Below are positions 37,325-39,773 of a stretch of 64,000 nucleotides of DNA, piece after piece. The stretch's first letter is position 1, and each line of letters begins with the position of its first letter. Position numbers and translations under genes: made by a program. The stretch is taken from assembly GCA_030426545.1 (NCBI GenBank), contig JAUHYL010000007.1:17402-81401 (forward strand), given 5' to 3'. This DNA comes from Gammaproteobacteria bacterium (GTDB lineage: Bacteria; Pseudomonadota; Gammaproteobacteria; Pseudomonadales; Halieaceae). The notes under the pieces were generated by a model. That model did not search any database. It had not been told where the DNA came from and saw nothing but the letters and a program-made list of their open reading frames with translations.

Positions 37325-37353
37325 TTGACACCTCCATTATTTGGGAATATATT
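37325..37353 (+). promoter_or_regulatory. Sigma70-type promoter TTGACA-N17-TATATT
   Basis: -35 TTGACA 37325-37330, 17-nt spacer, -10 TATATT 37348-37353; predicted transcription start close to the ATG at 37361. Confidence 0.75.
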
Positions 37354-37361
37354 CCCAAATA
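37338..37361. promoter_or_regulatory. Perfect 24-bp palindrome (candidate operator) TATTTGGGAATATATTCCCAAATA
   Basis: Exact self-complementarity over 24 nt, covering the -10 box and the first base of the start codon. Confidence 0.85.
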
Positions 37362-38170
37362 TGTCAGAGAGCCTCCATTCAGCACTCAGGGCCGCGGTAA
37401 TGCGCCTGATGCGTCCACTGGTCAGAGTGATGCTGCATCACGGTATGGCCTATGGCGATTTTGCTGAGATGGCCAGAAAGGCTTTCGTTGAAGAGGGGTT
37501 TGCTTACCTGGTGGCTTCCGATCGGCGTCCAACAGTATCCGGGGTGTCGGCTCTCACCGGGCTGACCCGCAAAGAGGCCACGCGCCTGCGGGATCTGGAC
37601 TGGGATGACGACAGCGATTCAGGCCAGCGCTACAACCGCGCGATTCGCGTGATCAGTGGTTGGGCGGAAGATGTGGCCTTTCGCGATGACAGCGGTGAAC
37701 CGGCGGCGCTGCCGCTGGAGGGTGACGAAAACAGCTTCAGTGCGCTGGTAAAAAAATACAGTGGCGATATTCCCTACGTCGCCATGCTGACGGTGTTGGA
37801 GAACAGTGGCACGGTGGAGGTAGCAGACGGCCGTGTGACGTTGAAAGAACGCGCCTATATTCCAAATGGCACGTCAGCGGACAAGATCAATATTCTGGGT
37901 ACGGATGTCGGCGAACTTATCGCTACTATTGCACACAATCTTCAGGCCAATTCCGGTCAGTTGCTGTTCCAACGCAAGGTGTCCAACCATAAACTGCGCC
38001 CGGAGGCGGTCGAGGAGTTTCGGCAGCTGTCGAACCTGAAGTCACAGGAGCTCCTGGAGGAGTACGACCGTTGGCTGGCAGAGCGCGAAGTTGGGTCCGA
38101 TCAAACGGGTGAGTATGTCGCAGTTGGAATCTACTACACAGATGGAATGCAGGAGGTGGCCTGTGAATAG
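37361..38170 (+). CDS. DUF6502-like protein, putative HTH transcriptional regulator
   Basis: MSESLHSALRAAVMRLMRPLVRVMLHHGMAYGDFAEMARKAFVEEGF... with HTH-like PTVSGVSALTGLTRKEATRLRDL. Start set at ATG 37361; the TTG at 37325 used by the ORF track is the -35 box. Confidence 0.7.
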   Translation: MSESLHSALRAAVMRLMRPLVRVMLHHGMAYGDFAEMARKAFVEEGFAYLVASDRRPTVSGVSALTGLTRKEATRLRDLDWDDDSDSGQRYNRAIRVISGWAEDVAFRDDSGEPAALPLEGDENSFSALVKKYSGDIPYVAMLTVLENSGTVEVADGRVTLKERAYIPNGTSADKINILGTDVGELIATIAHNLQANSGQLLFQRKVSNHKLRPEAVEEFRQLSNLKSQELLEEYDRWLAEREVGSDQTGEYVAVGIYYTDGMQEVACE

Positions 38171-39773
38171 AGCGCACATCTGCCTCGTTGCTATGCTGCT
38201 CTGGGCCGGCCTGCTCAGCGGTTGTGGCGGCGGCGCTGGCCTGGCCTCTGTGTTACAGAGTGATCCCGACGGCGGCATCGGCGGCACCGGCGTCACCAGC
38301 TCCGGCACCATCGACGGCTTTGGCAGTATTTTTGTCAACGGCATCAAGTTCGAAACGGACGATGCGCGGGTTCTCATCGGTGGCAGCAATGCCCGGCAGG
38401 ACGACCTGGCGCTGGGCATGGTCGTGGTGGTGACGGGCACCATCAATGCGGATGGTCGCACCGGCGTTGCCACGCGGGTGGAGTACAAGGAAGAAGTGCA
38501 GGGGCCGATTGCGTCCATCACTGCCGATGCCGATGGTGACGTCCTGCTGCTGGACGTGCTGGGCAAGCTGGTCATTGTAGAGCGCACCGGAACGGTGCTC
38601 GATGGCGTGACTTTCGAATCCCTCAATGTTGGCGATGTGGTCGAGGTGTCGGGTTTCACCAACGAGGATGACCAGGTGCGCGCAACGCGTGTGAAGAAGA
38701 AAGCCGATCTGTTTGTAGGCGACAACGAAGTGGCGCTCAAGGGAGCGGTGCAGGAAGTGACCGATACGCAATTCCGGCTGGGCGGTATTTTTATCAACTA
38801 CGACGCCGCTGATCTTTCTGACATCCCCGGCGGCATGATTGCCGAGGGTGCGGAAGTCGAAGTTCGCGGCGAGTTCACCGGCAACTCGATTGTGGCTAAC
38901 CGGGTAGAAGAGGGCATTGGCCTGGCCGCGGTCTTTAATGCTGACAGCGAGTTGAAGGTACAGGGCACGGTTACCGGTTTTGTCAGCGCGAGTCAGTTCA
39001 AGGTGAATGATGTACTTGTTGATGCCCGTGACGCCGCGCTGTACCCCGAAGATTTTGTCGTCAACGACGGTATGGAAGTGCAGGTCAATGGCGTATGGGA
39101 CGGAGCAGCCCTGGTTGCGGACGAGGTGCGCGCGCGGCGCGGTCGAATCAAGCTGGAAGCTGCCGTGGTGACGGTTGATACCGACGCAAGCAGTATCACG
39201 CTGGGTCTGTTTGGCGGCAACGTCGAGTTCAGCCTGCAGGCCGATACCCGCCTGAACGACGATACCGCCATGGATGAGTCTCTCAGCCTTAGCGACATTA
39301 CCGCCGGCGATTTTCTCAGTGTCGAGGCGGTGCGCGCCGCGGGCCGCCTGGTGGCTACGCGCGTCGACCGCATCGACTTCGGCGATGAGGTGCTGCAGGC
39401 ACCGGTAGAGCGCTTTGCCCAGGGCATCAGCGTGACGCTGTTGGGTATCGATTACGTCACCCTTGGCACCACGTTCGAAAACGGTGTCGACACCGCCATC
39501 ACGCCGCTGGATTTCTACGGCCAGCTTAGCGAGGGCGACCTGGTCAAGATTCGCGACGTGCAGATCGCCGATGGCCGCGCCGACGTGGTGGAGTTTGAGG
39601 CGGCCTTCGCGCTGGACGGTGATCGCGCCTTCGACGGTGATTGCCAGCCCGGCCAGGGTGGCGGTGACAGCGGCTCAGACGGTATCTGCGGTACGCAGGT
39701 GACGAATGCACTGGTGCCCGGCGGCTTTGTGCTGCCGCAGGCTGACCAGACGAACGACAAAGTGTACGAGTGA
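38163..39773 (+). CDS. DUF5666-like lipoprotein
   Basis: Lipobox LLSGC; repeated modules GGTGVTSSGTIDGFGSIFVNGIKFET..., GTVTGFVSASQFKVNDVLVDA...; GTG start overlaps the upstream stop (GTGAATAG). Confidence 0.75.
   Translation: MNRAHICLVAMLLWAGLLSGCGGGAGLASVLQSDPDGGIGGTGVTSSGTIDGFGSIFVNGIKFETDDARVLIGGSNARQDDLALGMVVVVTGTINADGRTGVATRVEYKEEVQGPIASITADADGDVLLLDVLGKLVIVERTGTVLDGVTFESLNVGDVVEVSGFTNEDDQVRATRVKKKADLFVGDNEVALKGAVQEVTDTQFRLGGIFINYDAADLSDIPGGMIAEGAEVEVRGEFTGNSIVANRVEEGIGLAAVFNADSELKVQGTVTGFVSASQFKVNDVLVDARDAALYPEDFVVNDGMEVQVNGVWDGAALVADEVRARRGRIKLEAAVVTVDTDASSITLGLFGGNVEFSLQADTRLNDDTAMDESLSLSDITAGDFLSVEAVRAAGRLVATRVDRIDFGDEVLQAPVERFAQGISVTLLGIDYVTLGTTFENGVDTAITPLDFYGQLSEGDLVKIRDVQIADGRADVVEFEAAFALDGDRAFDGDCQPGQGGGDSGSDGICGTQVTNALVPGGFVLPQADQTNDKVYE

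Follow-up and report, generated by a model that had tools for sequence, protein, structure and literature searches.

The locus raises the question of why a perfect palindrome covers the promoter and start codon of a gene, and which protein would read it there. In the window, that is, the whole 64-kb stretch of DNA analysed here, TATTTGGGAATATATTCCCAAATA at 37338–37361 was read as a perfect 24-bp palindrome with the core TGGGA-N6-TCCCA, and its symmetry ends at the next pair, T/T. On the forward strand, a −35 element TTGACA (37325–37330) and a −10 element TATATT (37348–37353) are separated by a 17-bp spacer, the −10 element lying in the centre of the palindrome, and a start codon ATG lies at 37361–37363. 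Re-reading of the sequence returned this arrangement, TTGACA-N17-TATATT with a 24-bp palindrome reaching to the A of the ATG, exactly as a preliminary description had given it. The gene that starts here (37361–38170, forward strand) encodes a protein of 269 aa (37361–38167), which belongs to the family PF20112 (DUF6502), with E = 5.5e-58 and a score of 196.4 bits vs. a Pfam gathering cut-off of 27. Its stop codon is overlapped by the GTG start, at 38163, of a partner lipoprotein gene (GTGAATAG; 38163–39773, forward strand), which carries DUF5666 (PF18914) domains.

Conservation of the palindrome and a predicted leaderless promoter

Allowing up to three mismatches, a 20-mer core of the palindrome matched once in the 64-kb window, vs. 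0.00 matches expected from 100 dinucleotide shuffles. TTGGGAANNNNTTCCCAA occurred once in the whole genome of the window. The genome-wide scan that the preliminary description had proposed found the wider TGGGAWWNNWWTCCCA exactly twice and only at the promoters of the two DUF6502 copies of this genome, one at each, and the reversed-pattern control of TGGGAWWNNWWTCCCA had no match there.

DUF6502 genes were then gathered from the order, class, and phylum to which the window's genome belongs, by family and whole-genome searches, as a search with the single window protein gave one relative, and 80 non-redundant upstream regions were analysed. Within 120 bp upstream, GGG-N8-CCC was present in 40 of the 80 genes (shuffle mean 3.2, maximum 8), the calls in the GC-rich upstream regions of L077, L086, and L087 probably being chance matches that do not affect the N7/N8 split described below, and TGGGA-N6-TCCCA was present in 26 (shuffle mean 0.02). 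When spacings of 0–15 were scanned, the main peak was found at 8 and a second one at 7; in control windows from coding sequences, AT-flanked patterns were matched in 1/480 (N8) and 3/480 (N7). Twenty-seven N8 sites end 2–5 nt ahead of the start codon, 20 of them at exactly 4 nt. In roughly half of the DUF6502 genes, no N8 site is present at the gene itself; among these, some carry an N7 site, some have a site before an upstream DUF5666 gene, and for some none was found. With altered spacing, the palindrome extends to other Pseudomonadota. The presence of the palindrome upstream of homologues, a check suggested in the preliminary description, was thus established class-wide in Gammaproteobacteria, and by sequence comparison the 24-bp palindrome represents a genuine operator that is kept before DUF6502 genes throughout this class.

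The same upstream regions were informative on the promoter. TTGAC occurred 16 times within 80 bp upstream of the 80 genes, 15 times at 35–37 nt before the start codon, a fixed distance that is expected to set the transcription start at the A of the ATG. Only 4 of the 80 DUF6502 genes (none of the 27 with a start-proximal palindrome) were preceded by Shine-Dalgarno-like words, vs. 37 of 100 other long ATG open reading frames in the loci. DUF6502 mRNAs are accordingly predicted to be leaderless, and the fixed −35 distances and missing Shine-Dalgarno words in homologues bear out, at the sequence level, what had been proposed from the window promoter. In L009, the DUF6502 frame seems to open near position 1460 at ATC, not at the expected leaderless ATG, which may be an odd start codon, a sequence error, or a later start.

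Two other accounts were rejected: a chance palindrome, on the shuffle and control statistics, and an RNA hairpin in a 5′ leader, because the −35/−10 geometry places the palindrome upstream of the transcription start.

Reader of the operator and sign of regulation

The co-occurrence of site and gene was evaluated at three taxonomic ranks, with Fisher p-values that ignore shared ancestry. In the family, the site was found in 11 of 12 genomes with DUF6502 vs. 1 of 19 without it (p 1.6e-6), the latter genome being 70% complete. With a longer pattern, the respective numbers were 16/34 vs. 3/161 in the order (p 1.4e-11) and 22/99 vs. 11/270 in the class (p 5.5e-7), and at both of these ranks the site frequency in genomes lacking DUF6502 was near the chance rate given by the reversed control. 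Of the 23 sites in the order, 13 accompanied DUF6502, either directly or, in a single genus, ahead of a DUF5666 gene lying 1.6 kb upstream of it, where two sites are spaced 26 bp apart. In operons with DUF6502 in second place, the palindrome often stands before the leading DUF5666 gene (L099, L101, L103, L107, and L109), some distal palindromes also precede DUF5666 genes (L225 and L233), and L054–L056 have sites before DUF5666 as well.

Tandem palindromes 25–26 bp apart were observed before DUF5666/DUF6502 genes (L054 5889/5915, L055 3936/3962, L056 5952/5978, and L080 1401/1426), which suggests two dimers side by side. Two palindromes lie 4–5 kb from DUF6502, one before a cytochrome c/flavocytochrome-like pair (L227 5918, in G831) and one before a ferredoxin-like gene (L228 6386, in G841), the genes being assigned by eye; a wider regulon is possible from these sites.

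The spacing of the operator was further compared with the DUF6502 tree. The 39 N8 genes and the 22 N7 genes are parted by a single branch (SH-aLRT 99), vs. a mean of ~18 changes after shuffling; this split is deep and amounts to one event on the tree, so that the paralogue pairs within genomes form the stronger part of the evidence. The genomes G006, G152, and G769 each carry both N8 and N7 genes, and each paralogue has the spacing of its own clade; G021 is likewise mixed if TTTGGGGCTATAATCCCATA of L013 is counted as N8 by eye. As the spacing matches the clade even among paralogues of one genome, DUF6502 is the most likely reader, and very probably it reads the palindrome itself.

That another, unlinked regulator binds the palindrome, with DUF6502 merely one of its targets, is very unlikely. 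The few sites far from DUF6502, e.g., those before the cytochrome c/flavocytochrome-like genes, would fit it, but in genomes lacking DUF6502 the site is about as frequent as expected by chance, the window's own genome has only two sites, and a paralogue-specific spacing within one genome is not expected of a third-party regulator. A general regulator other than DUF6502 was rejected on the same co-occurrence and spacing statistics. The N7/N8 split also offers a ready-made specificity-swap experiment.

Five promoters of the N7 clade (L028, L029, L032, L123, and L127) carry a second N7 palindrome 38–53 bp further up (e.g., AGGTGGGAATTATTCCCACGT), which is followed by TCAA, so the opposite strand reads TTGACGTGGGAA. 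In L028 and L123, the divergent gene encodes an alpha/beta hydrolase-like protein and is a probable target.

On the sequence comparisons, the case that DUF6502 binds its own operator appears strong. Repression is proposed with moderate confidence, because the palindrome covers the −10 element and the start. In several genes (L008 and the N7 group) the operator precedes the −10 element, and activation at the L008 and N7-clade operators is possible. HetR, which acts as the master switch for heterocysts in cyanobacteria, is an activator at many of its targets and a positive autoregulator. DUF6502 might by the same logic activate rather than repress from its operator, as the palindromes in or above the spacer region in L008 and the N7 clade would allow; we regard this as unlikely in general, since the palindrome of the window, like 26 others, lies over the expected −10 element and start, the classical place of steric repression, and a good −35 element is often present.

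Two further features of these loci were noted. CRP-like TGTGA-N6-TCACA sites lie upstream of DUF6502, perfect in L009, L013, and L091 and with a single mismatch in L033; relative to the predicted start, those of L009 and L013 are at about −42 and that of L091 at −61 (all by eye), and CRP activation of some DUF6502 operons is possible. The genome G143 carries eight DUF6502 copies (L018, L061, and L112–L117), two with an in-frame stop and most without an N8 site.

Modelled fold of DUF6502 and its exported partner

An AlphaFold2 model built from a 31-sequence alignment had a mean pLDDT of 87 and contained a helix-turn-helix (HTH) at residues 59–78, in which the HTH-like segment noticed earlier in the translation was recognised. 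Its predicted helices, 59–66 and 70–78, are encoded at 37535–37594 (forward strand); R70 is invariant and K71 nearly so. A second, winged helix-helix-strand-strand unit was modelled at 126–161. When the model was searched against the PDB with Foldseek, HetR was on top (4izz, E 2.2e-4, probability 1.00; also 4j00 and 3qod), and the best non-HetR match had an E of 0.16. A second model, of another member with a disjoint alignment, placed HetR on top again (4izz, E 7.9e-4, probability 0.99; best non-HetR match, E 0.30). The TM-scores of the monomer models vs. HetR were low, about 0.3–0.36, which may be because HetR is an intertwined dimer and the models are monomers.

Sequence methods gave no such signal. 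Neither Peptidase_S48 (PF03574) nor HetR_C (PF18460) matched any of 31 DUF6502 members, an hhalign comparison of DUF6502 with HetR, whose side consisted of two sequences only, was not significant, a PDB profile search with DUF6502 did not recover HetR, and a HetR_C search of the window's own genome gave noise only. The HetR letters used in the sequence comparisons were those of PDB chains. The best hhalign match of A1 to HetR was discarded for its wrong register. K71 can be aligned by hand to HetR K73 (LEPKRV/LTRKEV), while MAFFT, which misplaces the HTH when HetR is added to the DUF6502 alignment, puts the segment elsewhere. Because sequence methods detect no relation, DUF6502 is not claimed as a member of the HetR family; from the models, it is probably a DNA-binding regulator resembling HetR.

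The fold match could instead reflect convergence or generic helical and winged-helix pieces, with DUF6502 an ordinary winged-helix autoregulator, as the missing sequence similarity and the low TM-scores would have it. We hold this to be rather doubtful, given that both independent models return HetR chains as their best match, along the entire length and with a large gap to the next one, and that the GGG/CCC site logic and a G[ST]G partner peptide are common to the DUF6502 and HetR systems.

The partner peptide was followed across the homologues. A same-strand downstream frame with G-[ILVMAF]-x-G-[TS]-G was found for 65 of 79 DUF6502 genes, and a relaxed form for 10 more. In the window, the strict motif occurred in 1 of 59 open reading frames of at least 120 aa, and this one is the partner, whose N-terminal part carries GGIGGTG (38271–38291, forward strand). 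The motif was kept in partners other than DUF5666 proteins, namely a beta-propeller protein (L061), an Ig/fn3 protein (L060), and proteins without a Pfam family. DUF5666 itself was matched in only 8 of 80 genomes without DUF6502, and the strict motif was absent from the DUF5666 proteins of these 8 genomes, a small sample.

A serious competitor, which we rate as somewhat short of an even chance, is that GGIxGTG serves exported lipoproteins only for tethering or cleavage and has no regulatory role, in line with its position in a glycine-rich sequence shortly after the lipobox. Such a role accounts less readily for its retention in partners whose domains are unrelated, with as many as six copies (L119, L122, and L126), or for its absence from the few DUF5666 proteins of genomes lacking DUF6502. 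In the partners of L119, L122, L126, and L030, G[ILMF]GGTG occurs three to six times, an arrangement resembling that of multi-copy peptide precursors (e.g., in L030, DRGFGGTGK...DRGLGGTGK).

A proposed circuit and its comparison with known systems

In the mechanism proposed here, DUF6502 would form a dimer of HetR-like architecture, with an N-terminal HTH domain, a winged middle domain, and a C-terminal hood, and would bind the GGG-N8-CCC palindrome that lies across the −10 element and the start in its own leaderless promoter. Most likely it would thereby repress its own gene and the translationally coupled partner lipoprotein gene, and in some genomes it would also control further DUF5666 lipoprotein genes via additional palindromes. 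The likely effector would be the G-[ILVMAF]-x-G-[TS]-G peptide that the exported partner carries, and it may trigger the release of DUF6502; that DUF6502 senses this peptide is speculative and drawn from analogy. Taken as a whole, the reading we consider likely is that a HetR-fold protein autoregulates a leaderless operon, possibly under the control of the partner peptide.

No mention of DUF6502 or PF20112 was found in the literature covered, which excludes subscription papers and preprints, and within the same coverage the string GGIGGTG appeared only in an unrelated review of antifungal peptides. Pfam records no function for PF20112 or PF18914, and the HetR literature found is all on cyanobacteria. 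A Pfam family without known function thus acquires an operator and a regulon, together with a role that can be tested. A HetR-like DUF6502 family, which was found in 99 of the 369 Gammaproteobacteria sampled as well as elsewhere in Pseudomonadota, would widen the family of this fold and give simpler hosts for its study. The near-universal exported G[TS]G partner suggests an unrecognised peptide-sensing circuit; if true, HetR-type peptide signalling would not be a cyanobacterial invention and would exist in ordinary Gammaproteobacteria.

Compared with classical autorepressors of the TetR and MarR types, DUF6502 is similar in having its operator over the −10 element and a very small regulon, and differs in its fold, its predicted leaderless mRNA, and a clade-split operator spacing.

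HetR (4izz, 4j00, and 3qod; PMC4649674), whose flap and hood were reported as novel folds (PMC4649674), is the best structural match of DUF6502 over the full length, and the HTH domain, middle domain, and C-terminal hood-like part appear to recur in the DUF6502 models. The two systems further share an inverted GGG...CCC site, a bound own promoter (for DUF6502 by inference), and pairing with G[ST]G-type peptides. They differ in that no sequence similarity is detectable, that HetR requires GGG-N5-CCC, which it contacts via R62, K73, and E71 (PMC4649674, PMC4192349), whereas the DUF6502 operator has a spacer of 8 or 7, and that the target operons and taxonomy are other and the partner peptide usually lacks flanking arginines.

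RG[ST]GR peptides from PatS, HetN, and PatX inhibit HetR; the last of these proteins is exported, and its cleavage by PatP gives HRGTGR (PMC7761841, PMC12756182). The parallel with the DUF6502 partner motif is suggestive: a small x-G-[ST]-G motif in a regulator-linked protein, which in PatX is exported and cleaved. In contrast to the PatX, PatS, and HetN peptides (PMC12756182, PMC7761841), with their RG[ST]GR, the DUF6502 motif is G-[ILVMAF]-x-G-[TS]-G, and its bearer is usually a large DUF5666 lipoprotein encoded beside the regulator. We offer only tentatively, as an idea that may well fail, a HetR-PatX-like module outside cyanobacteria, in which a peptide cut from the adjacently encoded exported lipoprotein would control the grip of a HetR-fold regulator on its promoter.
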